DNA of 64,000 bases, taken from NCBI GenBank assembly GCA_037951105.1, contig JBAMJV010005537.1, positions 1 through 64,000 on the forward strand. The letters are read 5' to 3'. The first letter of the stretch is position 1. Every line of letters starts with the position of its first letter. The position numbers were made by a program, and so were the translations under genes. Source of the DNA: Echinarachnius parma. Lineage: Eukaryota; Echinodermata; Echinoidea; Clypeasteroida; Echinarachniidae. This document shows positions 13,208-64,000 of this stretch, one piece after another. Below the pieces are notes generated by a model that did no database searches, was not told the origin of the DNA, and saw only the letters and a program-made list of their open reading frames with translations.

Positions 13208-37019
<23,812 letters not shown>

Positions 37020-37129: not shown

Positions 37130-37212
37130 AAATTTGAGATGCTCGTCAACTTTCTCAACGACTACTTTGTATCAACAGAACCGGATTACCACGACCCGGA
37201 AGGTTTCTGATG
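37130..37212 (+). pseudogene. Decayed copy of the end of kinase exon 11
   Basis: About 80 bases match the last 26 codons of exon 11, including the STEPDYHDPEGF tail and stop codon, 186 bases downstream of the real end. It lies in the presumed 3' UTR and has no acceptor. Confidence 0.8.
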
Positions 37213-42311: not shown

Positions 42312-42354
42312 GGAGTATACAGTATATTGGTAACTTGTCGTGTGTAAACTAGTC

Positions 42355-43383: not shown

Positions 43384-43684
43384 GTGATTTTTTTTTCAGT
43401 AACTAGCTTTATTAAAGTCTTTCACTCGTTTTCTAATAGATCATAGTTTTTACTTAATTGTCTAAAGTCTTTTATAGAAATGTTCACAATCATGGTATCT
43501 GACAAAGTGGTTTACATACATGCATGTTCATAAATAACAAATTTTAAAAATAGCTCTTAGCACAGTACTTTGTCAATAACTGTTGTACAAGCTTTTGGAT
43601 AGTGACCACCAAAGGGAAACAAGAAAAGCAGCCACTGTCATAAACTGTAATGGACTGCTGAATGATATAACTTGTGTATAATTA

Positions 43685-44218: not shown

Positions 44219-45170
44219 TATAGTAGAAGCTAAGAAATAAAGATGTGTGCAAAGCTATTTGCTTGGTTTTGAGAAGTGTATTATAACAATTCAATTTAAT
44301 ATATCATATTGAATGTACCTTATTTGTTAACTGTGTATTAATTGTATGTAATTTGTGTGTACTTTACATTGTATTTATGAGATCCTTTCATACTGCTACC
44401 CTGCTACCATTTTCTTCATTGTAAATCATGAGAAAATGCTATTGCTAAACTGTGTTTATCATATTTTCTGTGAGTAATATAATTACATAAATCTATCAGT
44501 GGTTAGAAATTACTTAATTTCTTAAATATAATATTTTTGTTCTTGTGCCTAGCAATGCCTATGAATATTTTATTTGTTAATCAATTTTTTTCTTAATAGA
44601 AATAGAAGAATAAGATTTATTGTACATTTACCTGTGCATATTTTGTTTATTAAAGTGTTCTTTGATAACTCCAACAAGAATAAGATATTGTATTGAATCA
44701 TGCATTACTGATTACATGATGTCAAAATAAATACTCAGAAAATAATAATGTAATTTGTATGCATGTGTCTTACTCTCTTTTTTATAGCATTGGTGAAATT
44801 CTATACTTTATTTTGTGCAGGAATGGTTGATGTTTGTATCCATTCATCATGGTAATTATAATAGCCCTGAGAGGGTCATTGCAATTTCAGCTATAGCCTG
44901 ATTTCAGGCCCCTTTATTGTACATAACATGAGGCTTCAACATGTCTGGGTCTCTTTTCAGGCTCATCTGGAGAAACCAACTGGTATCCCTGACTCTATAA
45001 ATATCCATTATTATTACTAGAATACCGAGTTTGTTTTCTTCTGAATATTTAATTAGTCACTTCACATAGATGATTTGAATTGAATAAATAAAAATGAGCA
45101 AAGATAACTAGTGAGAGTTGAGGTGAAGTTGTTCATAGATCTGTCTGCTAATGAACGCAGAGTGCAGGGG
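44219..45170. other. Intergenic, nothing recognised
   Basis: AT-rich; no gene or repeat was recognised. Confidence 0.45.
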
Positions 45171-45182
45171 GTCAATCTGGGA

Positions 45183-45257
45183 GTGTCGTGGTAAATTTGT
45201 TTGGGGCCTTCATCTTTTAATACGAGGGTCGTGGGTTTGATTCCCAGCCGCGGCATG
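45183..45257 (+). repeat. tRNA-like SINE head
   Basis: A B-box GGGTTTGATTCCCAG ends a degenerate tRNA-like stretch; the A box is poor. Confidence 0.4.
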
Positions 45258-45703
45258 TGTGTCCTTTATCCACTTTATCCACATTTGCTGCTCTCAACCC
45301 AGCCTGCAGAGCTTTAATATGCAAGTCATTTAGTTAGAAATGATTGATCTAAATCTTTCAACATAGAATACAAATGAACAAATTTTACATTTGTATTATG
45401 TAGTTTAATTTACAAAATGTACACATTTATATGTAATGTACATGCGGTGAGTTCCACAAACAGGCCATCAAAATAATTAAGCAATCTTACATCATACATG
45501 TAGCACCCATGTATCTCTCAGTATTTATAATTACATTCACTGCACGAAATATAAAAATCAATCGTCTTTTATAACAATAGTTTTAAGGTTGACCCTCTAA
45601 GTAAATTATATAATATTTATCTTTGTCATTATGTCATTATTTTTGGTTGGAACCACGGTTCTATTATTTCGAATTTTTGGTAGTATTTATTACAAACAGT
45701 AGA

Positions 45704-46000
45704 TATGTCTGAATGATGTGTGAAAGACTCATTGAAAAAGAACACTGCTTTCCTGGTTAAAAAAGCGAAAATATGCGTCAGCTTTTACAACGCATTACTG
45801 TATGACGTTTATGAGGTTTATGACCGTTCATTAATGCTCTTTAGCTGAATGATTATCAATGATAGATATCGTCATACTAAAGGGGCATTTGAAAAAATCT
45901 AACCCTATTTCATTCTTCTCTTATCATAAGCTAAACAACACGGTAGAAGAGAAACGAGGAAGCTCCAAGTAATTTTCGTGGAGTTTTTTCAGGCATCCCT
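45704..46000. mobile_element. TTAA MITE family 7, copy 3, left-truncated
   Basis: Matches copies 1 and 2 from GTCTGAATGATGTGTGAAAG onward. The right end is shortened, followed by TTAA. A separate right-end fragment (GTTAGACACTTTACAGGC) occurs at about 46,705-46,737. Confidence 0.8.
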
Positions 46001-46004
46001 TTAA

Positions 46005-46636
46005 GGGGAGAGATCCACTTTTGCAAGCCAAAATTAAAAAGTTGCGAGGTTATTGTCTTATATGAAAGGAAATGTCATTTAATAGCATGCCTGAACAAAT
46101 TAGGGCTTGAAATCTCTTTTTCGTGGAGTTATAGACCTAAAACTGAATAAACTGAGGGACGTCGGTTAATTAGGTACATACATATTTTCGGCCGGTGAGT
46201 AAGTTTGTACATAGATTTCACGGAATGCCAGATCGGTATGCATGACCCCTACGTGACCCGGGCTAGCTACGTGACTCGCGCATACGTACTAATGTGTGAG
46301 CGTTTACCAAGCAAAATACCCAAACATCGCTTAAACTGACTACATGTAATTATATATTCTTTCTTTTTGAGATCTTTTTCCGTGACATACGTTAACAAAT
46401 GTCGGCTTCACAATACCTTTACGAGAATTAGTACTATATTGTTGTAATATTATGCTAAATCAGTTGAACTCCTTTATTGACCGATATATAGTTTAAATGG
46501 AGGGACGCATTCGTTTTTCATTCGTTGAATCCAAATTAGAGGGCTGTTCGCTCTGATTTTTTTATTGCGTGTTACATTGATCCCCATCCGTCAACTGAAA
46601 GCTGTTCAGACGTTTTGTAAAAGTGGACCTGTCCCT
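46005..46636. mobile_element. TTAA MITE inserted beside the family 7 copy
   Basis: Ends GGGGAGAGATCCACTTTT and AAAAGTGGACCTGTCCCT are inverted and stand between TTAA sites. 632 bases, non-coding. Confidence 0.75.
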
Positions 46637-46855
46637 TTAAGTAATAATTAAGTAAAGTATGTAAGTAACTTTGAATTTTGCGTTGTGAAAAAGAGTATTT
46701 CTTACCACAGAGTTAGACACTTTACAGGCATCACTTTAAACATGATAATCTCTGAAGTACAAAAAGTGGCTTGGCCCTTTTCTCTTTCTCAACTGACGAT
46801 ATGGTAGTAAGCAAGTAACCTGGGACCAAATTCATAAAACCACGCTAGCTTAGTT

Positions 46856-46942
46856 CTTGGCAGAGGACAGAGTTGCATGGCGTGCTCTCGTGAAGACCAG
46901 AGCAGCGCTTTACAGTGCCACCTGAACTTGATGATGATGATG
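46856..46942 (+). mobile_element. Short 5'-truncated LINE end with target duplication
   Basis: Encodes EDRVAWRALVKTRAAL, like the end of LINE ORF2 proteins, then a (GAT)n tail. AGCTTAGTT is duplicated exactly on both sides (46,847-46,855; 46,943-46,951). Confidence 0.85.
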
Positions 46943-46951
46943 AGCTTAGTT

Positions 46952-48466
46952 CCATGCTAAGTGCATTTCAAATGGTGCAATTTAGTATGCTACAAACAGT
47001 TTCCCTAGTCCTAGTTCCCAACTAGATCCCTTTAACACTACATATTATGGCAGCTGATTGGGTTTATCGTCTTCTATACCCTCATTTTATAGTGATTGTG
47101 AATGCTTCATGTAAGAAACTTAGGCAACGTTTCTTTAATTTCGTTTTAATAAAAGACTTTAGTAAATTATAAGACTACAATAAAAAATTAATTGACGAAC
47201 TTAAGATCATAGTATCAAATGACGCAGTCAAAGAAAAAAAAACTAAAATGGTTATTAATAAAGCATGGTTTCTTTATCATTCTGTATCAATATGCTGGTA
47301 GCTAAAACCCAACCTGTCGATATACGAACTACGCTCTCTTTTTTACATGTTCTAATTGAGTACATTATGAAAAAACTGACCCGCTTATATAAATCTCACA
47401 AAATGTTATATAATGTAAATAAACAAGAGAAATAATTAACTTTTATGGCCGCGGTGGTCTATAGAGCGGTCGGAAGAAAAAGTTGATGGTATGTATATCC
47501 ATTACACTTCCGACTACGTATTAAAGGAAATGAAGTATCAGTTTTCAGGTGTCATAAAAGTTTACAATTTGCGAAGGTCTATCCAATTCATTATCGCGTG
47601 TAACGATTACAGATATTTGTAATACTATAGGTTATTTGATATAGCGCTATAATTCATGTAAGTTTCATATAGTATTATCTTGATTCAGATATGCATGACA
47701 AAGAAACTCAGAAAGCGGATCATCCAGGACATCTTTCTAATAAAATAAAATGTTCAATGCAACAAGGCGGAATTGTGTCTAAATCCCCTCTCTGCCCGCC
47801 CCCCGCCCCCCCCCCCCCCCCCCAACAAAAAAATAAAAAATATATAAATACAGTAAAATACAATAAAAATCGCAATTCAGTTCGTTGTATGTATGAAGAT
47901 TCCGACCTTGAATAAATGAATGCATCAATAAATTTGTTAATTAAACCAGAAATACACCGATCCTGAAATTAGGAGGAAACAAAAACAACACTCGCGACTA
48001 TATTATATACCTTTAAAAATAATCTTCAAAAGTATCTGTTTCAGGTGCACAAAAAAAAAGGGACATTGTTATATAAGCAAACTAAGTTGGAAGGTAGTAA
48101 AGTTAATCATGATTATGCTTGTTAATCATTGTATAAGATTTCTGCTGGTATTCGGACCTTGAATTACATAATTATTACAATGCCGTGCACGGGGTTGATT
48201 AACGGTCAGCCGAAGGCAGGAACCTTCACATAATTATAAGCACGTGCCACTTTTTTGTAATGAACATTCGAGCATAGTTTTGTAGTTGGAAAGTTACTTA
48301 TTATACACAAAGGATGCTGGTATCGAAATACATTGAATTACATAATTATACCGTGAGATTACTTTACCACGGCCAGTGGAAGGCGAGAACCTTGTCACTT
48401 TTTTATGAAACAAGCTACAACAGTTGGGTATTTCAAACAAATCATGGCGGATACCGACCAGCTAGG
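46952..48466. other. Intergenic, nothing recognised
   Basis: AT-rich; a C run of about 16 at 47,806. No gene was recognised. Confidence 0.45.
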
Positions 48467-48628
48467 GCCCCGTTGCAGAAAGAGATGCAATCGATTGTAA
48501 AGTTGCAATAATAATTATTGAAAATCAGACTCAATGCTCAAATCTGATTGGTTGAAATGCGCAAAATTGTTCTGACTGACAATTAATTGTAACTTACAAT
48601 CGATTGTATCTCTTTCCGCAACGACCCC
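48467..48628. mobile_element. Palindromic MITE family 2, copy 3
   Basis: Ends GCCCCGTTGCAGAAAGAG and CTCTTTCCGCAACG; centre AAATCTGATTGGTTGAAA. Confidence 0.85.
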
Positions 48629-48660
48629 CACTCCCCCCCCCTCCCCCCCCCCCCCCCCCA

Positions 48661-48840
48661 GCCCAGTTTGGACTGGCGAATTTATTTTATACCTGTCCGC
48701 TCCTGCCCGCTAGTGTATAACCCCACTAACCTGTGTGGTATGGCAGCCAACAGGGGTTAGACAGATTAGTGGGGTAACAGGTTAGTGGGGTTTGAAGCGG
48801 ACAGGGATAAAATAAATTCGCCACAGTCCAAACTGGGTCT
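48661..48840. mobile_element. Palindromic MITE (CCCAGTTTGGACTG ends)
   Basis: Inverted arms of about 65 bases, CCCAGTTTGGACTGGCGAAT and its near complement. It is separated from the preceding MITE only by a poly-C tract. Confidence 0.85.
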
Positions 48841-49560
48841 ACACCACTTGCAACCTATTCTTATTATGGCTGATGCACATAATTGTCCAAAATACGTGTA
48901 TGTCTTTAGCAATATCATCCATTGTTCAACTAACAGCCACCCTCAAACACACATAATACTACAAGTACAACAAAATGATCCCTCCTATATTTATGAAGAT
49001 TCTCTTTTAGCTAAACTTATGTTTAAATATTGCGGGTTGTGGAATAATTCATTTCTAAACATAATTATTTGTAATTTGGAAGATTTATGAAGATTTATGA
49101 ATGGGTTATGTTCAGACGGCTCAGGATGGGCTTAGGATATCATCCAATATCGTATATATAGGTGTTCCTATGGCAGAACCAGAATCGTGGTGTATTAATT
49201 GCATTGATATGAAAATAATGTATTTTTGTACACGTATATAGAGTTCCCATCTCCAATTACCAGCAAAAGGAAGGAAAGCAGCAAATTATAATACCTGCTT
49301 ATTAGCATTATACATAAGTAGTTAATTGGTCCACGAATGCGGTTGGGCGATATCATAATACACTACAAAATAATATAAGCGGTTAACGGTTTCATATTCT
49401 CCATGCGGATAAAAATAATTATAACTAAAACAAAACAAAAATGTATTGGGTGTCAAACACGTGGGAGGGGTGTGGGTTTTTTTTTTTTTTTTTTTTTGTA
49501 ATTACCGGCAGTAATGGTATATCTTGTCAGTAAAAGTGTTGCGAACAGCATCAATGGCGT
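48841..49560. other. Intergenic, nothing recognised
   Basis: AT-rich sequence with a T run of about 21 near 49,478. Confidence 0.45.
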
Positions 49561-49589
49561 ATCATTAATATTATTATTGATAGACGGGG

Positions 49590-50117
49590 GCGTCATCAAG
49601 TGCATGGGGTGGGGTGCGGTGGGGGCGTAAAGGGGGGTGGGGTGCGGGGCGTAAAGTGAGGTGGGTTAGGGCGTAAAGTGGGCTGGGTTGGGGGCGTAAA
49701 GTCGGCTGGTGTGCAGTTGGTTGGGGCGTAAGGTGGGGTTTGGTGAAGGGCGTAAAGTGGGCTGTGGTGAAGGGCGTAAAATGAGGTGGGCTGGGGGTGT
49801 AAAGTGGGGTAGGTTGGGCCCTTTGGGGCGTTAAGTGGTGTGGGTTGAGGCGTAAAGTGAGGTTGGATTAGGGCATAAAGTGGGGTGGGTTGGGGGCATA
49901 AAGTGGGGTGGGTTGGGGGCGTAAAGTGAGGTTGGGTGGGGCGTAAAGTGGGTTGGGTTAGGGCGTAAAGTGGGGTGGGTTGGGGGCGTAAAGTGAGGTT
50001 GGGTGGGGCGTAAAGTGAGGTTGGGTGGGGCGTAAAGTGGGTTGGGTTAGGGCGTAACGTGGGTTGGGTTAGGGCGTAACGTGGGGTGGGTTGGGGGCGT
50101 AAAGTGGGGTGGGGTGA
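49590..50117. repeat. G-rich minisatellite, 19-26 bp units
   Basis: About 22 units of GGGCGTAAAGTGGGGTGGGT-type sequence of variable length. The plus strand is rich in GGG runs and could form G-quadruplexes. Confidence 0.9.
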
Positions 50118-50389
50118 GCTGCGCAGTCATCACGTTTTATATGGAAGTATTAAAGCAGAATATATGATCAATATCATGGTCCAAACCATTGCTGGGATTA
50201 GATTTGGACAATATTGATTATAGAAAAGGGGCGTCTCCATCGAGTTTCAAACAAAATAATTCAATGCACCTCTAAATTTTCAAAATTGTTGCCCCCCCCC
50301 GTGCAATCATATTGGGGGGCTTACCCCGTTGTCTCCACTTCCAGCGCAGACATTAACAAAACAAATGAAATTAAACTGAACTGCACTGA

Positions 50390-51345
50390 ATAATGTTTCA
50401 TTGATTGTTTGAAGGTCCCATCCCTTACTGCCTTAGTGTACATCATTTTACTAACCATATGGCCCTTTTAGGGGATATTATGTTACCATTAATCATTATT
50501 GTGAGCGCCACTAGGGGTTGTGGCCTTGTGGGGGCGTACACGGTGCCACACCCATACTGATGGTGGATACGCCATGGTGTAACCATGGTATAAAGGGAGA
50601 TTTGAAATGCAGACAGTCATTATAATTTTCTCCTATACCCGATTTGTTGTCACCATTATTATAAGCACCACTTGTTTTTTTCTTTTTTTCTTTTTTCTTT
50701 TTTTTGTTGTTTTGTGGGGGGGGGGGGGCTTCCTGGCTCCCTCCGTCACATGTACGGGGTACCCCACATCTGTATGTCGTGAATGGGCATTTTAAACTGC
50801 ATACATTATGGTTATTTGCTAACCATATGGCCCGATTTAGGGGATATCATATCATATTATCATTCATTATTGCAAGCGCCACCGGAAGGGTGGAGGGGGG
50901 GGGGGGGGGGGGTTCCCTTACTGCTGGATACGCCATCACACTGTGTAATGTATCTATTTAAACTGCACGCATGATATGATAATTCCAATATTGCATAATT
51001 ATGCCCCGATTTATAGGGTGCGCTTTCTGGCCCAGCATACGTACTACGGGGTAATTGCCACATCATCGTGTAATGAAGACATTTAAATAATGCACGCATT
51101 ATGATTATTTCCCAACCATATTTAATGGTCCGATTAGGGGGTATCATGTTGTTATCATTAATTATTGTAAGCACCACCGGAGGTGGGGGGGGGGGGGGGT
51201 GGGGTGGGGTTGGTCCCTTACTTTAAATGGATACGCCCTCGCATTGTATGCATCATTATTGAATAGATTTAAAATGCACACATGATTGTATTACGTATCA
51301 ATTTCTCGACCAGATGGCATCTTTTGTGGGATATCATTATCATAG
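50390..51345. repeat. Tandem array of three to four diverged units, ~190-370 bp
   Basis: Units share AACCATATGGCCC, TTAGGGGATATCAT, ATTATTGYAAGCRCCACCGG, a G run, GGATACGCC and AAAYTGCACGCATGAT. They start near 50,455, 50,822, 51,110 and 51,310. Confidence 0.8.
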
Positions 51346-51399
51346 TATTAGTGCTAAATGTTGCTTCTATTTTTAGTCCGTGTACATGTATGTAGTATA

Positions 51400-51853
51400 G
51401 TAGTAGCAGCGTGCGTACTATATTTATCGCCATTGACGGAGAGTACAGTCTTTATGTCAGACCCCAGTGAATGTTATTTTCCTTCATGTTTATTATCATC
51501 AGACCAGTTTACTATCATTCCAATCCATGCGCATTCTTGGGCCGTCTGGTGACCTGGTGACCTCACTACAGCCTTGTAATAGGGCCTAGGAAGCAACGGG
51601 AAGGCATTTATCTATGTAATAATAGTTGGAAATAATTAATCCTATATCATCTAAAAATATATTTATGCTTTTTATCGTTTTATAAACTTATGGGCCCTGG
51701 AGAAAATTGGTTTAATTAACCTGATCCTATCTATCTATCTATCCTATCTATCCTATCCTAGCCTATGTGTGCGCGCGTACTATGTCGCCATTGACGGAGA
51801 GTATAGTCTTTATGTCAGACCCCAGTGAATGTTATTTTCCTGGTTTATGTACT
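51400..51853. repeat. Direct repeat of about 75 bp
   Basis: GCCATTGACGGAGAGTA and GTCAGACCCCAGTGAATGTT occur at 51,430-51,482 and 51,787-51,840. A CTAT microsatellite lies between them. Confidence 0.85.
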
Positions 51854-52420
51854 TACTATAGTTAACACTAATTATCAAATAAAAGGTTGTGGATGTGTTT
51901 GTTACAAAGCCACATCATCCAAATAGATTTAGCATGAAACTATGGTGGGCTTTTATGAATATGGGCTCTGACCATCAAGTCCTGAATACCGGTAGGCAAA
52001 AGAAGCAAATCATTCCATTGGGATTTCCCAATATAACTTTGGCAGGGGTATATGGAGATTGCACTAAAATTGATACAGGTTAACACTGAACCATTTTAAT
52101 TATTTCAATTAGGGGCTAACTGCAATTTAACTCTTAACATTTAGTATTAGCACTTAATATTTCTGTTAGAAAGGACATAATTAGCTTTACTGATTTAAAG
52201 TCACTTGCATCTTCATGTATGTGGATCTTGGGGGATCAATGAAGACAACTTGAGGAGTAATTTCTGCAACTGTTTTTTTTTCTTCCAGTGAATCTTTGCT
52301 ATTCAAAAGATTGAAGTAACAAAACTGTGGGAATATACAGAATGATCTCTAATTACAAAAACTGACCAATACGAAGCAAAATACAATTAAGATCAGAACA
52401 AACAGTGGAGTCCTAAATGT
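51854..52420. other. Intergenic, nothing recognised
   Basis: No gene or repeat was recognised. It may include distal TAF2 3' UTR. Confidence 0.4.
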
Positions 52421-53035
52421 CACATGGTCCAATTAATTACATTCACATGGTTGGTGATATCTGTGGCTCTCTGTCCGGAATTGCTCTCCTTTTCTTGGGA
52501 TTTAACGTACTATATTCTTTTCTTGAATTGCTGAAGAACAGGCGTGTGCCCAATAAATAACAATCACATGGCCATTGCATGGGAATCACATGATCAGTTC
52601 ATCATAGTCACATGGCAGGCTTATGTCATTCACATGGTAGTAGAGCGCTGCAGCTCTTTGTCCGGCCTATCGTGCCTGTGTTTATGCTTGTGCTTGCTCT
52701 TCTTCTTCTTCTTGTGGTGCGACGAGTGACCTTTACCCAAATCACATGTTTAATCTATTACAGTCACATGGCCATTGCATGATAATCACATGATCAGTTT
52801 TAACAGTCACATGGCCAGTGCATGCTCAATGTATGAGATTCACATGGTAGTCGAGCGCTGCAGCTCTCTGTCCGGTGATGAGTGTGCCTTCCTCAAAACA
52901 CTATTTAAAAAAGTGGTCACATGATCAGTGTATTCGTTTCACATGGTCAATTCATTACAGTCACATGGCCATTGCATGAGAGTCACATGCTCAGTTCATC
53001 ATAGTCACGTGACAGGCTTATGTCATTCACATGGT
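52421..53035 (-). promoter_or_regulatory. Presumed TAF2 3' UTR dense in CATGTGA
   Basis: About 16 TCACATG words (CATGTGA in the mRNA sense) occur within about 600 bases, far above chance. They are interleaved with the terminal-exon copies, so part of the density comes from the tandem duplication. The motif includes an E-box core (CACATG). No polyadenylation site could be fixed. Confidence 0.5.
52629..52885 (-). pseudogene. Tandem partial copies of the TAF2 terminal exon
   Basis: 52,629-52,739 matches the terminal exon from the Lys/His tail through the stop codon and past it, with about ten differences. 52,838-52,880 is a shorter copy of the ELQRSTTM region with stop. Both lie in the presumed 3' UTR. 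A spliced form using the distal copy would end in nearly the same tail. Confidence 0.8.
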
Positions 53036-53271
53036 AGTAGAGCGCTGCAGCTCTTTGTCTGGCCTGTCATGCCTGTGTTTATGCTTGTGCTTGCTCTTCT
53101 TCTTCTTCTTGTGATGTGATGAGTGACCTTTACCGGGCTCGCTGAAGAGGGAGGTGCGCGAGTCATCTCGTTGGAGTCCGTGGTGGGATGACGCTGGGGA
53201 GCCAGGAAGCGGGGTTGTTGCCACGGAAGAGAGGCCTGAGAAACTGTCCCTGGAACTCTCATCCACCTCAC
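53027..53271 (-). CDS. TAF2: TAF2 terminal exon with Lys/His-rich tail and stop
   Basis: Acceptor TTATTTTCTAG. It encodes EVDESSRDSFSGLSS, then HHKKKKKSKHKHKHRHDRPD and ELQRSTTM, then TGA at 53,029-53,027. The basic tail is the typical TAF2 C-terminus. The Lys/His part and stop region are repeated downstream at 52,629-52,739. Confidence 0.92.
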
Positions 53272-56200
53272 CTAGAAAATAAAACAATTATGATTAAAAA
53301 AAATCACAGAAAATTAAAGATTTTGTCTTCATTTATTTTTTGTTACAATAAAGAGAAGGACATGTTGATCTACCTGTTTCTTTTTAAGCATTTAGAGGCC
53401 AGTTTTGCAGTAGGCACCACAAATATATAACAATATATCATCATCATCTTCATCATCATCATCATCATCACCAACAACACCACCATCATCACAAATTTTG
53501 TGAAATCATGAAAATAATTGTAGTTATGAAATGAATTAATATGTAGAAATGATTCTTTAGAGTGCTTAGAGTGGAAATAAAACCACAATTTTTTTAAATA
53601 GAAAATCAAAACCTCACCTGGTTCTACTGGAGACAGAGGTGACTCCTCCTTGACCTCTTCTTTGCTTTCACCTTTGACCTCGTCTGGGTCAAAGGTCACG
53701 GTCTGGGGTTCAGCTTCTTCACTGTCAAGTCTCTCCCTCTAATATACAAAAAACATACAAATATGAGGGAAAATTAAATGTATAATGTATTATAAAAACA
53801 CATATTTTTGGAGATTACAACATTCAAAGTCACTCAAATGCAGTGTTTAAACCATTAGATTCCCTTTTCCAGTACTAGGCTTCTTTGACCTCGTCCTTGG
53901 TTTCACCTTTGACCTTGTCTGATTTTAAGATGATGCTACACCACAGATCTAGTTTGCGCGCACTGCATAACAGTGATTTAGTTCCATGTGCATTAAGCAC
54001 ACAGAGCTCACAAGGCATTCGCAAGATGGCATCACACCACCTTTAAGTGACAACTTTTCTTGTATCCCTTCAATAGGTGGTTATAGGTTTGACTTGATAT
54101 TTTTGTCTGTAGACCAGATAGCTGCCAACCCTGATCAACAAAGAAACAGAATTAAATGACCCAAAAAACAGAATTTTCAGGAAAAAAACAGAATTTGATG
54201 AATTATCATGTTAAAAAATTGACCTTATTACCAAAAAAGCACAGAAATCGCACATCGCGAGTGGAGCGATCTTCATAGCTTACTACAATGTACATACTGA
54301 TGTTCGCGCACAAAAGTAGACAATTAATTTGAAGATCGTATATTTGAACAGGGTCAGTGCTGGTGCTCATAACGTGCATATTACATGTTACAGTGTTTGA
54401 ACTTTTTCTCTAAGCGTTTTAAAACTTTTTTTTCTTTCTTTTTTTCCCCAATGTAATTTAACTTCAAAAATAGTACTGCTGTAATTACATTTTAAAATCT
54501 GTAACAGAATGGTTGGCAGCTTTGGTAGACTGATAGTTTTTCACCATCTGTAAATTATCAAAGTTAAAGAGACAAATTACCTTGACTGGTGGTAGGAAGG
54601 GCTCATCTTCTCCCTCCACATCCACATGAACGGGGGACGATGACTCTCTCTTCACCCTCGGTGATGACAAGCCCGGTGATGAACGGTTGCTAGGCGCTGT
54701 CACACGCTCACTGTTGCTGTCTGCATCAAGATCAGAATCCACCCGGAAATCCTGCAAACATTTGTAATGGAATACAAAAGGTAGTCATTAATTTGTTAAA
54801 GAAAAGGAGTGTTTGTAATTATAGGCGCCATGAGTGTCACAATTTGACAGTCCAATGGGCTACATACATGTACGTCACCACTATAATCATATTATAACTT
54901 AAAGGGTACCACCACCCAAAACTAATATTCTTATACATGAAAGGTAACATCTTCAGCATTCCATTCCATCAACAAGTTCACAAAAATATGTTTTCAGAAA
55001 AAACATATAATAGGAAAACGCATCACCATTCTGAAGCATGCGATCATGCGGTCTGAATTGCGAAGACTAATGCGTGCGGAGCGAAAGAATCGCCCGGGAT
55101 TCTATTGCCTATAAACGTACGCGTGAATAGCATTGGCGCACTCGCAAATGTTTGGCCCGTATGGAACCAGGAAATAGTAGTGGTTCCGTAAGTGGTGGAA
55201 ATTAATTGCTTTGTTTATGAACTACACAACCCTTTGCAAAATGTTGGGTATCTATTTGATATCACAAAACGGTATCAAAACATATAATTATGTGTTGTTC
55301 TTTGCCTGGTGGTCCCCTTTAAACCCTTTCCCTTTTAGATTCTGAAATTCCCATATACTTTGTACATAACCCATCAGGTTCATGTAGTCAAAAGCTAACT
55401 GAAAGATCTAATTGATCATTTATCCCAATATCTTTTCTTTTTTTACTGATGCTGATAGAGGCAGAGAACCAAAAAACAGGTCTTCTTTCCAAACAAATTT
55501 GCAATGACTATAATGCCCCAGTATTGCTGATTGGCTCATGGCAGACTAGTTAAAATATTTGGAAACTTACAACAATTAGAATGTCTTTTTAAACTGAACC
55601 CCAGGCCCAATTGCATTAAGAGATATAATCGATTGGAAGTCTAACAAAAATTGAAAGTCAGATCATGTGTTCTAAATGCGCAAATCTGATTGGTTGAAAT
55701 ATGCAAATTTTCTGACTTACATACAATCAATAGACCACTTCTGTAATGTATGCAAATAATATGCGTATGACGTAAGACTCCCCGTTGGCAAGCTTAACAA
55801 TAGTAACTAGGTCCGGCAAGCTAAGTTTGCCGGAGCTTGCCGGACCTAGGTACTATTGTTAAGCTTGCCAACGGGCGTCTGACGTCATACGCATATTATT
55901 TGCATACATTACCAAAGCGGTCTATTGTACTGGTCTCATAAATTTGATATTTTTATAGAATAATTCTCACCGCTGCCACCACGTCCTCGTCTGGTTTCTC
56001 GTCATCTTCCGCCTCATCATGCAACATGGCAGGGTTCACGGCCGTCGTGCCACGCCGCAGATTCACCACAAAGCCCAGCTAGAGAGAACAACAAATAATT
56101 GAAATGCTCAGATATTATAAAGAGAACAAACAAAAGGAGAATAACTTAATAGCATTCATAAATGAGCTAGTAACAAGATATTAACTTATATTTATCTAAT

Positions 56201-59200
56201 TTGAAAATGAAAACCTCCGTCTCCCAAATGTTTTTCGTCCTCCTCTGCCTCATCATTCAACATGGCAGGGTTCACCACAAAGCCAAGCTGGAAGAATAAA
56301 AGGAGAATGCAGTGATGACATTTGTGAAAGAGATTAATATGGTAACATATTGAATTTTGAAATAAAAACTTCCTTGTTCTTCAGATTCTCTTTATCATTT
56401 TGCTCCCCCTCATCATTCAACATGGCAGGGTTCACGGCCGTCGTGCCACGCCGCAGATTCACCACAAAGCCAAGCTGGAAAAACAAATTACAGAAGAAAA
56501 AAAAATCATTAAACTAGAAAATTCTTTGAATGGTCAGTCCAACCTGAGAATTAGACTACCAAGCAATTGATTATTGCGTCATTTGAATTCTGTTCTACTG
56601 TGAACTTTATCTTTTCATGAAACCTCATTTGATTGGCACTAACAAAAGCATGTTACATAACCACTGACATAGCAGCAGATTCAGCAACAGTGGTTACATA
56701 ACCCCCTTTTACTAGTGCACGCTCAGATGACGTTTTATATGGTACCGTTGGAAAACATGGCAGCCTACAGTAGTCAGTCAAAACAGTTGATAGTGGTTTA
56801 AAAATGGAGTATTTCCATGATTAGCGATACCCAAGAGGAAATGTATGATTAGAAGTGACAGGAATTATGCACGTATCAGTAACAGTAAGGTAACAGTAAG
56901 CAAATTGCAGCGTTTCGCTTCCCCTCAACAATTGTGTTAGATTTGGTTGCCAATAAGGGCAAGTAAAGTTTCACACAATCAAAGTCTTGATGGCCAGAAG
57001 CTAATTTTTAGTGGCCCAATGCCAAAGTGCCTGTGCTAATTTTGAGCATTGTATTAGCATTAGCATCATACCTCTGGTAGTGGTAGACATGACGGTCTTG
57101 TCTTGCCGTAGAGCGTGAAGAAGAAGTCGACTGTGTCACAACGCAGCCTCGAATCATGGGACGTGCCAGAGCTAAGAGGGGAAACAAACAAATAAGATAA
57201 TATAGGGACTATCAACACTAAAATTGAACTCTTTTTTGATAGATTATTACATTAATTGGAAATAGAGCAAAGAATTGAGATCTGGCACGGCCTTAACTCA
57301 AGATCTTCAAAATACTTCCATTGACATTTCTGTTGGCAAGGTCAAGGACTTCCATAGCTACATGTACAACAAGAAAATATTTTCCTGCCAGAAATCTTCA
57401 TTTTTAATCTAGGTCTCTCTACCCTAATCCCATTAGGGGGGGGGGGCCATTTTGGCCCGTGCATCTAGTGCATCTAGTGCATCTAGACCGATTGGAATTT
57501 CACGTTCAAACTTCATGACTTTTTTCTCTCAAGTCTCCCGCATGTTTTGATATATAATTCACCCCGGTCGGACATGTAGAACTGATTTTAGAGGTCGATA
57601 ATTGCTCAACCGTCACAAAAAACTGCAATTTTTGTACAGGTTTCTATGTAATTCCTACATATCCGATGCCATGTAAACTCCAAATCTGTTAAATTGTTAC
57701 ATTGAATTATAATTTGGATTATTTCTTTGTTATTAGTTTAATTCATACACTTCATAGATAAATAATTCTTAAAAAAAACAACAACAAAAATAAAAACAAT
57801 AAAATACATAAGAATGAAAACAATGTGGGTAAATCCGGGAAACCTAATTGGCATATTTGCATATTTTATGCAAATTAGTGATATATTTTGTCACCATAAA
57901 AAACATGGATATGATGAATTACATCATTTGAAAGTATTTTTACAGAAAACCTGAAGAAATCCTGTAACCCGAGATTTGAGGGGGGGGGGGGGCCAAAATG
58001 CCCCCCCCCCCCCCCCCCCCCCCCCTCTAATGGACTCAAGTGACCAAATTAACCCAATGGGATTAGGGTTAAAGTGCCCCAAAGTTATTAAACACAAGCT
58101 TCTATGGGGTTCCATCATTTGCAATTAGCAGTAGCAGAAGTATTGAAAAATCTCCCTCAGAATATAAAGCAAATAGACACAAATGGGGGGGGGGGACTAA
58201 AGAAAGAAATCACTTCATGTGCGCCCACATTCTCTCTACAAGCTCCTCTGGGCTCAGTTTAGACTCATCCTTGCACTTGAAGGGCGGGTTGTCAATCAAC
58301 ACTCAGAGCAGCTAATGCAAGATTTTATGGGGCTCAATTATTAGCAGGAGCAGTAGCAGAATAGCGGTACAAATTTCACTCAGGATGAAAAGCACATCAA
58401 CACAAATTGGGGAAGGGGAGAGAGAAATTAACTTACTTCATGTGCGCCCACAGTCTCTCTACAAGCTCCTCTGGGCTCAGTTTAGATTCATCCTTGTACT
58501 TGAACGGCGGGTTGTCAATCAACATCCAGAGCAGCTAATGCAAGATTTTATGGGGCCCAATTATTTGCAGTAGCAGTAGCAGAATAGTGGTACAAATCTC
58601 CCACAGGATAGAAAGCACATCAACACAAATGGAGTAGCGGTGGGGAAAAAAGAAATCGACTTACTTCATGTGTGCCCACAGTCTCTCTACAAGCTCCTCT
58701 GAGCTCAGTTTAGACTCATCCTTGTACTTGAATGGGGGGGGGGGGGGGGGGGTTGTCAATCAACATCTGAAGCAACTAATGCAAGATTTTATGGGGCCCG
58801 ATCATTTGCAGTAGCAGTAGCAGAATAGTGGTACAAATCTCCCACAGGATAGAAAGCATGTCAACACAAATGGAGTAGGGGTGGGGAACAGACCAAAAAT
58901 AAATTGACTTACTTCATGTGCGCCCATAGTCTCTCTACAAGCTCCTCTGAGCTCAGTTTAGATTCATCCTTGTACTTGAATGGGGGGGGGGGGGGTTGTG
59001 AATCAACATCTACAGCAACTAATGCAAGATTTTATGGGGCCCGATCATTTGCAGGAGCAGTAGCAGAATAGTGGTACAAATCTCCCACAGGATAGAAAGC
59101 ATGTCAACACAAATGGAGTAGGGGTGGGGAAGAGACTAAAAAGAAACTGACTTACTTCATGTGCGCCCACAGTCTCTCTACAAGCTCTTCTGAGCTCAGT

Positions 59201-62200
59201 TTAGACTCATCCTTGTACTTGAAGGGCGGGTTGTCAATCAACATTCGCAGCAGCTCATGCCTGAAATATTCAGATTTAAATGCGAGTAAGATTACATATT
59301 AAACGATAACAATAAACAGCACAAAAAGAAACTTTTAATTTTTATTGCATTCACATCCAAACAAAAATACATGGATCAAAATCAAAATATTTTAAAATAA
59401 ATTTTAGTTAAATTTTCAAAATTCTACTTCCAAATGCTAATAAACAGAGACCCATATTTAAGTATTTTATTCAGCTTTCTTGGTTAACAGAAATAAGATT
59501 TATTACTAGATGAACTTGAACATTGTAATTTTTATTGATAGCTTATATGCAGCATATTTTAATTATTAGCAATTAAAGTAAACCATTTTACTCTCAAATT
59601 ATTTATCTGAACTTCTGTAATTTTGCTAAAATAATGTGAATTTTCATTTTATAATTGTTGTCGTTTGTTCATGTGTAAATCTGTCGCAATTTCTTTTTTT
59701 ATTTTTTACATTTCTTTTTAATAAACCTTTACATATAAAATAAATAAGCAGATAAATAAATGTATATAGATACATAAATAAATAAATGAATGCATGACTG
59801 AAAGAATGAAAGAATGAATGAATTAATTAATTAATTGATAAATAAATGAATAAATAAATAAATAAATAAATAAGTAAATAAATAAATAAATAAATAAATA
59901 ATTAAATAAACAAATAGACCTTTTCATTTCAGATTGAACTCACCTAATGATAGGCACAGGGTCTTGCTCTACAATGTCCAGCAACCAGGAGAAGATATCA
60001 CCACTCGACTCAACTGATAACAAAGAAAAAAGCCTCTTTAATATTTCCAGGCCCCCGTAAACATAAATATTCATAACTTATTGTACAATTCATCATCAGG
60101 GCCCAGATATTAGCAAGATAAAATACAAACAAATTGTGTTATTACACTATCTCAAAAATGCTTGACACATTCAAAACAAGATGGCGTATGTCATACATAA
60201 TGTTTGCTCGCTGGGTAATCTTTTGAATGAAATTATAACTCATAATCCTTCCAAACACAGAATCCGAGAACAACTATTGTCAGACCTTTGACATAATCTA
60301 TAAGTGCTTTCAAAGTAGCCAACCTGATTTGATAAAGTGACTATACTGAGTGTAGGTTAGGTATAAGGTTTGTTTGATGGGTAGATGGCTGTTGGTATTC
60401 TTTGCATTTTCAATATTGAGATTAAGATTGTAACTTATAATAATTCCAAACAAAGAATTGAATAACAAGTTTTGTTATACCTTTGTCTTTGACATAGTCC
60501 ACAGGCGCTTCAAGAGCATTGTGCTTAGGTCTGACATACATGTATAGTCAGTTCACCTGGGTAGATGACTGTACTGATTCTTTGTGGGTTTTTTATCTTA
60601 AAGGTATGGTGAAATCCCGGCTTTGATTCAGGTTTATAGCTTTAAATATGTGCCTATATTGATATACCACACTCTTTTTTTCAAAGAAATCCTTAAGTTG
60701 GGCAAGAAAGGTAAATTTCATGCAACTTTTTTGCTTGTTTTCGCATCGGCGTTCCATACTGTTAAAAAAGTAATTTATAGCGGAGCGGGAATGTGCGCAC
60801 GTGCAACCCGGATCATGACATCACAAGCAGACCACAACGCGGAGGAATGTGCATGGTCTACATGCAGAGCCTATGATTTCCTTGTAAAACAAACTCGTTT
60901 TTGCTTGTAAATTGAGGCTTAACTGAAAATTCCTAAGAAATGAATTATAGCAGCTTGCAGCAACACATCTGAGTGTAGATCGTCCATGATATAAACTTTA
61001 ACAAATGTTTGCAAATATTGAAAAAAATCGAAATAATATCTCTCTGTCAACGTGAGTATTGCACTCAGCGTGTACGTCTATGACCGAGCTATATACTGCG
61101 ATTGCCTGCATGTGACGTCACAAAGATGACGTCATTTTTCTTCGCCCGGACTCATTTTTTTTACGGGGATTACTAAAGTGAATTTAAAAGTTGATTTTTT
61201 TATTTTACTGGGTTTTCCGACGCGGAAAATATGTTTTTATTAGTAATCTTCATGACAATCTACCTTAGATACAGTAAAACACAATTTTTAGGTAGTTTTC
61301 TTGTCAGCCAACCTTTAAGGATAAGATTATAACTTACAATCATTCCTATGTCAGATTTAGAAACCAGATTGTTGGAATATACCTTTGACGTAGTCCACAA
61401 GGGCTTCCAGAGCAGCCAACCTGACCTTGACGAAGTGGCCATATTGGGCGTAGGTCTGGAACAATGTTGGTTCGCTGGGAAGATGGCTGTTCTTCTGCAG
61501 TAGTCTAATGGTCCGTAGGCAGGAGATAGTTACTGTGTGTTGGTAGCATGGTAGTAGCTTCTCTAGGTTTAGGCATCGTGTCACTTCTTCAAGAACCATC
61601 TGGAAGGGAAAGGCACAAAATGTAAATGATTAATGTCCGATAGAGTAAAAATAAAGAGTGCATAGAACTAAACAGATGAGAGATTGGCTCGGGAATATGG
61701 CTGTTCTTCTGCAGTAGTCTAATGGTCCGTAGGCAGGAGATAGTTACTGTGTGTTGGTAGCATGGCAGCAGTTTCTCTAGGTTTAGGCATCGTGTCACTT
61801 CTTCAAGAACCATCTGGAAGGGAAAGGCACAAAATATAAATGATTAATGTCTGATAGAGTAAAAATAAAGAGTGCATAGAACTAAAAAGATGAGAGATTG
61901 GCTCGGAAATATGGCTGTTCTTCTGCAGTAGTCTAATGGTCCGTAGGCAGGAGATAGTTACTGTGTGTTGGTAGCATGGCAGCAGTTTCTCTAGGTTTAG
62001 GCATCGTGTCACTTCTTCAAGAACCATCTAAAAGATGAAGAAGGCAAAACAATGTTATTGATGACAATTCTTTCAGAAACATGTTAAGAATAAAGAACAA
62101 AATGAACTTAATAGCTTAATAACTTCTGGAAGAGTCCTATTGTCCGTAGGCAGATGGTGACCGTGTGCTGATAGCAAGGCAGGAGCTTCTCTAGGTTTAG

Positions 62201-63645
62201 GCATCGTGTGACCTCTTGAAGAACCATCTAAAATATGAAGAAGATAAAACAAATCTTGAGGATAAGATTATAACTTACAATCCTATGGAAGATTTAGGAA
62301 CCAGATTGTTTTAATAATGATATGATGAAATGGGTACCATGGCCTTAGCGCCATCTTCAGTGGCAGTTTGGCTAGTATGCTCCCCGGGGAGTTGAGAAAG
62401 TACACAATATCATTGTGTGGGTTTGAAATGTACCTGATGACCATGGGTAATAATTAAATAATTATTTAAGCGTAGTAGAGTATATATTTATAGTAGCTGC
62501 GCTATAAAAAGGTTCATATTATTATTATTATTAAATGAAATGATGCTGATAATCATCACAAAACTTCCTGAGAATGGCCAATAACAATGACCTCTCATGA
62601 TCTAAAGGGAGCTGATATTGACCAGAGCATCATCTCAGGTTTCAGGGTATCCTTTCACTTCTAATACTATCAAAGTAAATAAAAAAAGAAAAAACAATGG
62701 TTTCTAGAGCAAGATATATTTCAGCTTTTCTATTTTTCCCTGAAATGTGGATAGATGAGGATAGTTTAATGTCTTTCATTTAAAAATCTAAAGTAAAATT
62801 ATATATTTCTTTCACAAGTTTCCCTTTTTTATAAAAGTTACCTTTGTCTCTGGTGAGAGGTTTTCCACGCTTGTGTTGACCATGGCAACCGCTGCTGTGA
62901 TGGTGTTTGACAGAGCATCAATCAGCCCAGCACGGTAGTAACAGTCCGAGAACTATGGAGGCAATAAATGAAGAAAATTTGTTTTAGTTTTTGAGGGACA
63001 TATTACATAGGAAGGAAACATGATTAGTTTACCATATGTGACCGGCTATAGCAAAACCCGGCACTTGTCGGTAATTCATGTCTTGAAGAAATGGGCATTT
63101 TAAGTTCACACAATGTGTGTAAAAGACCTATTGATTGTAAAATCATATCTTTACCAATTAATGACCAATTAGATAGAACAAAGGATCAAATGAAAGCTTG
63201 TGATGGGGCCTTTGTAATGGTAAGAAAATCTACATTTTGATTTTTACCGACAAGTGCAGGGTTTTGCTATAGCTGGTCACATATATTCAGTGGTATAGCA
63301 AACATATGAGAAAATGCATCATCATCATCATCATGCGCTATACATTATAAATCCATTAGTATTATCACTATTATTATCATTATCATCATCATCATCATCA
63401 CAACATCATCATAAAAATCATCATCATAAAAATCACCATCATCACCATTGCCATTTTCAGTCATAATGATTAATAATGTACTATAAACTAATCATAGAGA
63501 CATATCCTTAACATTAACCTTGTTCTTGGCATTGTCGTTGTACTTGATGAGATCCAACAGGAATGCCAGACTCTATCTTGGACACATGGTGTGTGTGTTG
63601 CGGATCATCATCATCATAATTATCATTATCATTATCATTATCATT

Positions 63646-63678
<33 letters not shown>

Positions 63679-63683
63679 TTCAC

Positions 63684-63724
<41 letters not shown>

Positions 63725-64000
63725 CCATCACCATCACCATCACCACCACCACCACCACCACCACTACCATCATCATAATCATCATTACCATCATCATCAT
63801 CATCTTCACCATCAACGTCGTCGCCGTCGTCGTGGTCATCATCACCATAATCATATCATCATAATCATATCATCATATCATCATATCACCATCATCATCT
63901 TCATCATCACTACCTTCAGTCATTACTATTAATACTATAAACCAATCATCACATAGACATTTCCTTAATAATTACCTTGTTCTTGGCATTGTCGTTGTAC
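53027..64000 (-). CDS. TAF2: TAF2, TFIID subunit 2 (C-terminal part; 5' end beyond the window)
   Basis: Exons in mRNA order are 63572-63519 (start uncertain), 62952-62842, 61599-61383, 60013-59944, 59260-59156, 57171-57072, 56078-55971, 54751-54581, 53738-53618 and 53271-53027. All phases agree, giving about 433 residues and a TGA. Segments recall human TAF2 in order: DLIKYNDNAKNK, FSDCYYRAGLIDALSNTIT, EEVTRCLNLEKLLPCY, AQYGHFVKVRLAALEALVDY, WLLDIVEQDPVPIIRH, LRMLIDNPPF, LWAHMNSGTSHDSRLRC, RPSCLPLPELGFVVNL. An acidic, serine-rich region follows, then a Lys/His-rich end (HHKKKKKSKHKHKHRH). TAF2 is a scaffold subunit of TFIID; its aminopeptidase-like domain contacts promoter DNA and lies upstream of this window. 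The C-terminal HEAT-like region is what is seen here. Several exons have extra tandem copies. Confidence 0.95.
53618..53738 (-). CDS. TAF2: TAF2 exon, acidic linker (REKL-type, EVKGESKEEVKEE)
   Basis: One hundred and twenty-one nt, acceptor TTTGTATATTAG and donor AACCAG|GTGAGG. It begins RERLDSEEAEPQTVTFDPDE and ends SPLSPVEPG, a low-complexity acidic region. Confidence 0.85.
54119..54522. mobile_element. MITE (AGCTGCCAACC ends) in TAF2 intron
   Basis: Inverted ends AGCTGCCAACC and GGTTGGCAGCT, with repeated ACAGAATT phrases inside. Non-coding. Confidence 0.6.
54581..54751 (-). CDS. TAF2: TAF2 exon, Ser/acidic linker
   Basis: Fifty-seven codons, phase 0, acceptor ATGTTTGCAG and donor GTCAAG|GTAATT. 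Composition is Ser, Asp, Glu and Pro rich (SPGLSSPRVKRESSSPVHVD), probably disordered. There is a possible SUMO-type VKRE motif, but this is not verified. Confidence 0.85.
54903..55318. mobile_element. TTAA MITE family 3, copy 2
   Basis: Same ends and TTAA flanks as 22,633-23,050, and highly similar along its whole length. Confidence 0.9.
55605..55940. mobile_element. Palindromic MITE family 2, copy 4, interrupted
   Basis: The left part (ATTAAGAGATATAATCGATT, AAATCTGATTGGTTGAAA) runs to 55,730. Another palindrome is inserted there, and the remainder (TTGTACTGGTCTCAT) resumes after 55,924. Confidence 0.7.
55733..55922. mobile_element. Palindromic MITE, TA target, nested
   Basis: Arms of about 90 bases (GACCACTTCTGTAATGTATG and complement), centre AGTTTGCCGGAGCTTGCCGG, flanked by TA. 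It is inserted in the family 2 copy. Confidence 0.85.
55971..56078 (-). CDS. TAF2: TAF2 exon (LGFVVNLRRGTTAVNPAML)
   Basis: Thirty-six codons, phase 0, acceptor TTCTCTCTAG and donor GCAGCG|GTGAGA. It corresponds to human LGLVLNLKEKKAVLNP, then becomes acidic. Two further partial copies lie upstream in the mRNA sense (56,237-56,289 and 56,385-56,475). Confidence 0.92.
56237..56475 (-). pseudogene. Two extra copies of the TAF2 LGFVVN exon
   Basis: At 56,385-56,475 the copy reads LGFVVNLRRGTTAVNPAMLN and stays open, but it lacks a consensus donor. At 56,237-56,289 the copy has an internal in-frame deletion (LGFVV joined to NPAMLND). Both keep a CCAG acceptor. They may be alternative or dead exons. 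Confidence 0.8.
56645..56935. mobile_element. Foldback MITE family 9, right half
   Basis: Matches the centre and right arm of 40,893-41,362 (CAAAACAGTTGATAGTG, CTAGTGCACGCTCAGATGA). Confidence 0.8.
57072..57171 (-). CDS. TAF2: TAF2 exon (SGTSHDSRLRCDTVDFFF)
   Basis: One hundred nt, acceptor CCCTCTTAG and donor CCAGAG|GTATGA. It encodes SGTSHDSRLRC and RPSCLPLPE, both close to human TAF2. Confidence 0.93.
57421..58070. mobile_element. MITE family 1, copy 3, in TAF2 intron
   Basis: Starts ACCCTAATCCCATTAGGGGG and ends CCAATGGGATTAGGGTT. Poly-G or poly-C stands just inside each end. The interior has AATACATAAG, as in the other copies. Confidence 0.75.
58205..59035 (-). pseudogene. Four extra tandem copies of the TAF2 HELLRML exon
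   Basis: Copies lie at about 58,214-58,312, 58,433-58,535, 58,661-58,770 and 58,913-59,009, plus the genuine one at 59,156. Spacing is roughly 220-250 bases and includes flanking intron. In all four, the acceptor side reads ATGCAAGATTTTATGGGG instead of the genuine acceptor. Two have the middle replaced by a run of G, and the first has a stop. Donors (CATGAAGTAAGT) are kept in most. Confidence 0.85.
59156..59260 (-). CDS. TAF2: TAF2 exon (HELLRMLIDNPPF...LWAHM)
   Basis: One hundred and five nt, acceptor AATATTTCAG and donor CATGAA|GTAAGT. The split codon AA|C gives the Asn of NSGTSHD. It is one of five tandem copies; only this one keeps the acceptor that fits the preceding exon. Confidence 0.92.
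59735..59925. repeat. (AAAT)n-type microsatellite
   Basis: Runs of AAATAAATAAAT with GAATGA interruptions, in the TAF2 intron beside exon 59,944. Confidence 0.95.
59944..60013 (-). CDS. TAF2: TAF2 exon (SWLLDIVEQDPVPIIR)
   Basis: Seventy nt, acceptor TTTGTTATCAG and donor ATTAG|GTGAGT. The DPVP motif matches human TAF2. It is followed in the intron by an (AAAT)n-type microsatellite. Confidence 0.92.
60276..60572 (-). pseudogene. Two decayed copies of the 3' half of TAF2 exon MVLEEV
   Basis: At 60,276-60,400 and about 60,476-60,572 the sequence matches the GHFVKVRLAALEALVDYVK end of the 61,383-61,599 exon, together with its donor-side intron, with many changes. They lie between the genuine exon and the next one. 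Confidence 0.7.
60573..61260. other. TAF2 intron; possible element, unresolved
   Basis: GC-richer patches (60,775-60,860; 61,060-61,160) and TGACGTCA-like words suggest a transposon interior, but I could not match the ends. Confidence 0.35.
61383..61599 (-). CDS. TAF2: TAF2 exon (MVLEEV...ALVDYVK), the full-length copy
   Basis: Acceptor CCCTTCCAG and donor GTCAAAG|GTATAT; 217 nt encode the conserved EKLLP, SCLRTIRLLQK and FVKVRLAALEALVDY helices. It is the only complete copy among about six tandem copies, and it is the one whose phase fits the next exon (G|TT, Val). Confidence 0.93.
61694..62227 (-). pseudogene. Three tandem copies of the 5' half of TAF2 exon MVLEEV
   Basis: Copies at 61,694-61,813 and 61,908-62,027 are nearly identical to the genuine exon over about 40 codons and share the CCAG or TTTAG acceptor. 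62,120-62,227 is more diverged. All stop matching after QKNSH and run into intron. The spacing of the two closest is 214 bases. Intron sequence at 62,254-62,312 also repeats 61,316-61,378. Confidence 0.85.
62337..62545 (+). mobile_element. SINE-like repeat, copy 2
   Basis: Shares GCTAGTATGCTCCCCGGGGA and GGGTAATAATTA with 42,355. Its tail is GCTGCGCTATAAAAAGG then (ATT)n. Confidence 0.7.
62842..62952 (-). CDS. TAF2: TAF2 exon (FSDCYYRAGLIDALSNT)
   Basis: Thirty-seven codons, phase 0 at both ends, acceptor TGCCTCCATAG and donor ACAAAG|GTAACT. It matches the human FSDNYYRAELIDAL segment. Confidence 0.93.
63034..63285. mobile_element. MITE family 6, copy 2 (reverse)
   Basis: Ends ATATGTGACCGGCTATAGC and GCTATAGCTGGTCACATAT; reverse orientation relative to 23,318-23,590. 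Confidence 0.9.
63315..63910. repeat. (CAT)n microsatellites around a TAF2 exon
   Basis: Runs at 63,319-63,445 and 63,604-63,905, mostly CAT/CAC. Open frames of poly-His, poly-Ile or poly-Met follow from the repeat and are not genes. Confidence 0.95.
63519..63572 (-). CDS. TAF2: TAF2 exon (SLAFLLDLIKYNDNAKNK)
   Basis: Eighteen codons are open and join in phase 0 to FSDCYYR. The donor is AACAAG|GTTAAT. Upstream in the mRNA sense the frame meets a stop, and the only nearby AG has no pyrimidine tract. A (CAT)n repeat occupies the region where the rest of the exon should lie. The edge copy at 63,976 may be the one actually used. Confidence 0.6.
63976..64000 (-). CDS. TAF2: TAF2 exon copy at window edge (YNDNAKNK end)
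   Basis: The last 25 bases of the window encode the end of DLIKYNDNAKNK, followed by donor AACAAG|GTAATT. The same exon end recurs at 63,519, so one of the two is a duplicate. This copy has the better donor, but its start is outside the window. Confidence 0.6.

Follow-up and report, generated by a model that had tools for sequence, protein, structure and literature searches.

Local tandem copies of exon edges in TAF2 and two other genes of the echinoid Echinarachnius parma

The window analyzed here is a stretch of 64,000 nucleotides, bases 1-64000 of the 120,301-bp contig C5531 (JBAMJV010005537.1) in the Echinarachnius parma assembly GCA_037951105.1 (1.2 Gb and 14,790 contigs searched), and it holds a complete Src-family kinase gene on the plus strand and the 3' part of a TAF2 gene on the minus strand, both with partial tandem copies of some of their exons (Table 1). 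The kinase gene (13208-37019) has 11 exons encoding 516 aa, and its closest relatives at full length are those of Diadema antillarum (75%) and Strongylocentrotus purpuratus (74%). TAF2 was identified through the match of its exon C to PDB TAF2 (E 7.9e-32) and through at least 111 protein matches to the spliced window part of the gene, the named ones being largely TAF2 (scored among the 7995 candidates with most shared words) and the top five among those listed being echinoderm proteins; in a TAF2 tree the window sequence stands among echinoderms, with modest group support (83/79). Spliced in matching phases, the modelled exons yield 433 aa of uninterrupted frame, the first 18 residues of which were later traced to a copy of exon A. 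Upstream TAF2 exons in the rest of the contig were mapped one by one with echinoderm proteins and not spliced together; the first two coding exons (near 95.5 and 94.7 kb) stood outside the copy test, and X14, placed approximately, outside the main count.

All five TAF2 exon sets that an initial annotation of this DNA had reported are present with the copy numbers it gave: counting the real exon, YNDNAKNK (exon A) has 2 members, MVLEEV (C) 6, HELLRML (E) 5, LGFVVN (G) 3 and the terminal exon (J) 3. The exon C set also contains the two near-identical copies described there (C2 and C3), and a sixth set, missing from that annotation, is formed by exon I. For YNDNAKNK the two members stand, but the visible one is a decayed duplicate; our own first model of exon A at this place was rejected once the extended contig put the real exon across the window edge, where it reads CPRESLAFLV against CPR*SLAFLL in the copy.

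Within the exon C set, three copies of the 5' part with their acceptors lie upstream of the real exon and two fragments of the 3' part lie downstream, and C4 and the copy at 60286-60393 are exactly complementary parts of the exon. A dispersed repeat of ~720 bp (60598..61319) sits in the intron between exon C and its 3' copies, and occurs at 96-98% identity in at least 39 other places (best 40 of 4360 candidates scored). Exon E has four full-length copies, in each of which the acceptor AG is replaced by the same sequence, with GTAAGT as donor in three and GTGATT in one. Long poly-G tracts, which the real exon E does not have, are expanded in E2 and E3. Both J2 and J3 are copies of the 3' end of exon J with the stop codon. 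The kinase gene carries local copies at two of its 11 exons, where K1 has a 5' copy upstream, and K5 a 3' copy downstream plus two fragments on its upstream side. The listed copies lack one or both splice sites of their exon, or part of the exon itself, and none of the 19 window copies (15 of TAF2, including that of A, and 4 of the kinase) keeps both sites. The earlier statement that only one copy per set fits the splice phase therefore stands as one usable exon per set, but phase is not quite what separates them, because both LGFVVN copies retain an acceptor in the correct phase.

Local matches at the exons exceed chance. In the window, 8/21 exons had a local match score of at least 44 (exon A via its copy), while the other 13 scored 18-25 and showed no local copy in the same test. 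Intron tiles matched in 36/204 cases, but outside the array spans in only 8/168, all in one minisatellite. This 23-bp minisatellite, of ~43 units, lies in a kinase intron (28053-29040).

Table 1. Positions of exons, exon copies and the M1-peptidase array (window coordinates unless stated otherwise)
Feature	Position	Strand	Remarks
Exon A (YNDNAKNK), real	whole exon contig 63976-64086; 3' end in window 63976..64000	-	crosses window edge
Exon A copy, decayed	63519..63603	-	3' part with donor, TAG for GAG, 83/85
Exon B	62842..62952	-	no local copy found
C4	62123..62227	-	exon C positions 1-108 with acceptor, 88/105
C3	61898..62027	-	exon C positions 1-129 with acceptor, 123/129
C2	61684..61813	-	exon C positions 1-129 with acceptor, 124/129
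Exon C (MVLEEV), real	61383..61599	-	
Exon C 3'-end fragment	60487..60518	-	positions 186-217, 28/32
Exon C 3'-part copy	60286..60393	-	positions 109-217, 83/108
Exon D	59944..60013	-	no local copy found
Exon E (HELLRML), real	59156..59260	-	
E2	58913..59025	-	full exon length, poly-G insert, no acceptor, donor kept
E3	58665..58782	-	full exon length, poly-G insert, no acceptor, donor kept
E4	58437..58541	-	full exon length, no acceptor, donor kept, 97/105
E5	58214..58318	-	full exon length, no acceptor, GTGATT at donor, 97/105
Exon F	57072..57171	-	no local copy found
G3	56404..56474	-	exon G positions 1-71 with acceptor, 68/71
G2	56230..56287	-	exon G 5' part with acceptor, internal deletion
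Exon G (LGFVVN), real	55971..56078	-	
Exon H	54581..54751	-	no local copy found
Exon I copy	53882..53921	-	positions 53-92 (internal fragment), 35/40
Exon I, real	53618..53738	-	
Exon J, real	53027..53271	-	terminal exon with stop codon
J2	52840..52875	-	exon J positions 210-245, 33/36
J3 with 3' flank	52551..52737	-	coding part 52630-52737 = exon J positions 138-245; 6 differences, all synonymous
K1b	33237..33358	+	exon K1 5' part and acceptor, with a 6-nt in-frame insert; all 7 differing codons synonymous
K1, real	33451..33596	+	kinase exon
Old copy of terminal exon K5	36496..36550	+	5' part, 42/55
Exon K5 fragment	36690..36715	+	positions 63-88, 25/26
K5, real	36811..37019	+	kinase terminal exon with stop
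K5b	37133..37210	+	3' part of terminal exon with stop, 69/78
M1-peptidase exon array	L024 1821-3189; L025 3879-4773		~9 vs 6 units

Over the whole mapped TAF2 gene, 16/24 exons have local copies (A, C, E, G, I, J, X3, X4, X5, X7, X9, X10, X12, X13, X15 and X17; a first pass gave 14/22, and X15 and X9, the latter through a short copy of its 3' end, were added later), and none was found for X6, X8, X11, X16, B, D, F and H. The copies in TAF2 and the kinase gene stand head to tail beside the real exon, upstream where they hold its 5' part and acceptor (C, G, K1, X7, X13, X17) and downstream where they hold its 3' part and the donor or stop (A, J, K5, X3, X15); those of E hold the exon minus its acceptor. 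A scan for tandem pairs on DNA alone, in which protein was ignored and seven pairs were dropped as short-unit repeats, found 17/24 clusters touching exons across 52.5-93.7 kb against 7.8 expected (P 7.5e-5 under independent placement), and 11/3745 rigid rotations reached that number; among clusters with a pair of at least 85%, 13/18 were exonic against 6.1 expected. In the two gene spans of the window the excess was 8/9 against 3.4 expected (P 0.0016; 46/5085 rotations), a test that left out the short-unit clusters at 28053 and 34495, used the non-repeat part of the A pair and counted exon A as first modelled, i.e., at what was later shown to be the copy.

A third gene with such copies, which encodes an M1-peptidase domain, came up in a family search run with a different aim. 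An exon-containing array of this gene lies on contigs C9056 and C2371, which may be haplotypes or recent copies; next to the array they share 98.9% identity over 915 bp and 99.0% over 1076 bp. The array shows 8 successive repeat offsets in the former and 5 in the latter, or ~9 versus 6 units. Such length variation was seen at this gene only.

For the kinase gene a second haplotype is available in contig C7302, which corresponds to window positions 33295-52155. It starts inside K1b, so that the K1b acceptor falls outside it, and has the last part of K1b, the junction, the spacer and K1 itself in window order; K5 and K5b are 190 bases apart, as in the window, and the number of units at K1 and K5 is equal on both haplotypes. 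Strict segregation of the copies as alleles thus fails here, where both haplotypes carry copy and exon together. Summed over ten C7302 blocks, with a duplicated stretch counted once, the haplotypes mismatch at 281/18,693 aligned columns (1.5%), ranging from 0.3% to 8.4% per block, whereas divergence between copy and exon in the window runs from 2% to 24%; most copies are therefore not alleles, although a few young ones fall within the range of the most divergent haplotype blocks, and an allelic origin of the copies in general is disfavored. When the exon C array was used as a query of the assembly it matched only the window's own contig, and the exon E array matched in full on that contig, with pieces of only 40-97 bases at nine other places. 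C7302 also contains a duplication of ~8.65 kb (~11928-20511 and from 20581 onward), probably an assembly error, which looks quite unlike the exon arrays.

Differences between copies and exons lean toward synonymous sites. By codon position (1/2/3) they number 41/18/91 in 17 window comparisons and 26/18/81 in 22 comparisons of the extension, and in six of 13 arrays (X15, A, C, E, G and J) the counts at positions 1, 2, 3 and in the flank are 8/198, 1/200, 16/199 and 46/449. Against a simulated neutral copy beside a constrained exon, a simple model, nonsynonymous differences fell below expectation in 31/37 comparisons (five above, one without differences), and 90/233 differing codons were nonsynonymous or stops against ~153 expected, a sum over copies that are not independent within an array. 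Taken singly, 15/19 window copies were evaluated (A, 60487, G2 and 36690 left out, A being in the extension set), and neutral evolution was rejected for C4, J3 and K1b (P <=0.0015 at kappa 2 or 4); of the 22 comparisons in the extension none went this low, the minimum P being 0.013. A poor fit to constraint (P 0.005 to 0.04) was found for E5, the exon-C 3' copy, one X5 5' copy, the A copy and one X15 copy.

We consider it highly likely that these arrays are real serial tandem microduplications, usually of one exon edge with adjoining intron, and of the same kind as the 'mirages' of amphioxus; the feature itself is very probably real in all three genes looked at in the assembly. That the sets reflect several separate events rather than one, as the initial annotation held, is borne out, but its view of a peculiarity of a single-copy basal transcription gene is not, given the copies in the kinase gene of the window and in the M1-peptidase gene elsewhere, and the amphioxus precedent. 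It had also offered biological origin and assembly artefact as alternatives; the former is probable, and the latter is now disfavored. Since a breakpoint lies in or adjacent to the exon, both splice sites are left only to the copy attached to the remainder of that exon, which accounts for one usable copy per set with no need of a function for the others. Such copies may arise by replication slippage or unequal exchange, and may later expand or contract while swapping sequence with the real exon.

Several observations weigh against this account. Without its two weakest sets the window excess shrinks to 6/7 clusters (P only 0.023; 141/5085 rotations). Six of the 24 TAF2-gene clusters are purely intronic, five of these in the long X17-A intron, while a seventh non-exonic cluster merely borders the approximately placed X14 (18/24 if counted). 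Outside the exon arrays then known, 32/167 intron tiles of the longer gene also match, ~13 of them by position in the X15, X9 and X14 arrays and 19 in intronic arrays. Part of the exon bias may lie in detection, since a conserved real exon stays alignable longer. The TAF2 arrays were seen on a single contig, spacings in the exonic arrays widen from 187-243 bp in the window (n=15) to 55-243 bp, median 195, with the rest of the gene (n=34), and the copies differ too synonymously from the real exon for simple neutral passengers. Ordinary minisatellite turnover, even over the genome and linked to exons only through the recognition of the reader, would account for the six exon-free arrays in the TAF2 gene, for nine further clusters at 98-118 kb where no exons were mapped, and for an 80-bp array that varies between haplotypes; we consider it rather unlikely, given the exon excess in a placement test that ignored protein and the confinement of matching window intron tiles outside arrays to one minisatellite. 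The intronic clusters and the exon excess together mean that exons are favored, but not required, as sites of tandem duplication.

An assembly artefact, with alternative haplotypes or failed contig overlaps laid end to end, gains something from the haplotypes that this assembly keeps apart in places, from the ~8.65 kb repeat inside C7302 with its identical match statistics, from the confinement of the TAF2 arrays to one contig and from the young copies A, C2 and G3, whose divergence is no more than that of the most divergent haplotype blocks. It is nonetheless very improbable: up to six copies occur in one set with graded divergence of 4% to 23%, haplotype divergence lies below that of most copies, the kinase copies stand in identical order on two contigs, and the window's contig contains no N. 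Neither the limit of two copies nor the allelic divergence expected of false haplotype duplication was found, although the second-contig comparison concerns the kinase gene and not the two-copy sets A and I. Selection could instead have kept the copies as functional alternative exons, mutually exclusive or poison, as the intact acceptors of several copies and the almost purely synonymous differences of C4, J3 and K1b (3/15 window copies tested) would suggest. Yet no listed copy has both splice sites of its exon, J3 lies beyond the stop codon and is preceded by 14 bases that contain no AG, the E copies contain stops and in two cases poly-G frameshifts, five copies fit constraint poorly, and amphioxus mirages are described, in excerpts of two papers, as not disturbing regular splicing (PMC3087553, PMC3902484); we regard this explanation as very unlikely.

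We cannot explain the synonymous-leaning pattern firmly, and alternative use and a gene-conversion load remain candidates. Under the latter, unexpressed copies would be kept coding-like by gene conversion with the real exon, a damaged copy endangering its own chromosome whenever it converts that exon, so that selection would reach untranslated DNA in a very large population; we put this forward as an unlikely reading. A hint of exchange between copy and exon comes from the real K1 of the second haplotype, which reads GCC GAA where the window has GCT GAG and so agrees with K1b at two synonymous positions that lie three bases apart; a third difference close by does not follow K1b.

Most unit sizes here are 120-245 bp, and the sea urchin nucleosome repeat is given as 218-240 bp in an excerpt of one source (PMC12961432). 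The match of spacings is suggestive only, and many exon-free arrays are built of comparable or shorter units. A nucleosome-sized step, strong in the window, is weakened over the whole gene, and the widened range (from 34 spacings compiled by hand, omitting A at 457, exon C to 60487 at 896 with its dispersed repeat, and the fourth X7 gap) leaves it not established. As speculation, a common step size might reflect nucleosome- or Okazaki-fragment-sized events, and nucleosomes positioned on exons might contribute to the exon bias.

Amphioxus mirages, as described in the excerpted text of PMC3087553 and PMC3902484, are tandem duplications of exon-intron boundaries, both 5' and 3', in Adh, globin, TnC and PGBD5 genes, with 6 versus 3 units in two haplotypes. 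The arrays in E. parma share with them (Adh3, globin BflGb6/BflGb9, TnC, PGBD5) a boundary duplicated in an intact gene, the involvement of either boundary and truncated exon copies, as well as an AG or GT kept in many units; the unit number that differs between haplotypes, as described for the mirages, may have a counterpart in the ~9 versus 6 units of the M1-peptidase array. The unit spans the exon-intron boundary here too, 5' and 3' boundaries are both affected, and the host coding sequence is intact, with open spliced frames in the window part of TAF2 and in the whole kinase. Where our case departs is in its echinoid host, in its reach (16/24 mapped TAF2 exons and two other genes), in the coding-like substitution pattern of the copies and in unit size, the excerpts giving 10-72 bp for Adh3, 60 and 108 bp for PGBD5 and ~150-160 bp for the globins. 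The nearest proteins are those of sea urchins rather than cephalochordates, which concerns the place where the structure was found and not the structure. An amphioxus-type feature is thereby extended to echinoids, although the kind itself is already known; among the titles listed by searches of open-access PubMed Central none dealt with such exon-edge structures in echinoderms, which is not proof of absence.

The same exon may have been hit in amphioxus itself. A Branchiostoma belcheri TAF2 model (P0006) has, at residues ~820-940, the first ~32 codons of exon C four times over, head to tail, the same exon start as is multiplied here, though in a predicted protein only, and a related model (P0038) has one copy; these repeats are probably mirage copies annotated as exons, which suggests the same exon C hit. 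An internal-repeat scan of 231 proteins listed 26, which besides P0006 comprised 21 Src-family pairs of the WEI...KLG type, two Anguilla SH3 repeats, a simple repeat in P0184 and an identical 63-aa repeat in Centruroides P0098, which we rejected as a draft-assembly artefact; a self-BLAST version of the scan listed nothing, P0006 included. Mutually exclusive tandem exons are local exon duplications, and they differ from the copies described here, which lack the full pair of acceptor and donor with frame. The Rogers model of intron gain by tandem AG/GT duplication (as cited in the excerpted PMC3087553) is akin in that duplicated splice sites in genes are its raw material, but no new intron is shown here.

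If exon-edge duplication is frequent throughout this genome, it would steadily supply new splice sites, exon variants and intron gains, and equally errors in gene models, with predicted proteins absorbing copies as B. belcheri TAF2 seems to. Its cause and splicing cost become comparable across two deuterostome lineages, and the synonymous-leaning pattern puts the idea that gene conversion exposes silent copies to selection within direct reach of a test; interest attaches to what causes the exon bias and to the coding-like substitutions of the copies.

Other repeats of the window include a MITE-like element (63034-63284) whose 41-bp inverted ends are 95% complementary, with a related inverted copy at 23321-23586, and a near-perfect palindrome of ~200 bp formed by nested inverted repeats (55728-55927). 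The 80-bp array that varies between haplotypes is a two-unit short match in the window (40091-40212) and has ~4.5 units on the other haplotype (C7302 13420-13781, L032).

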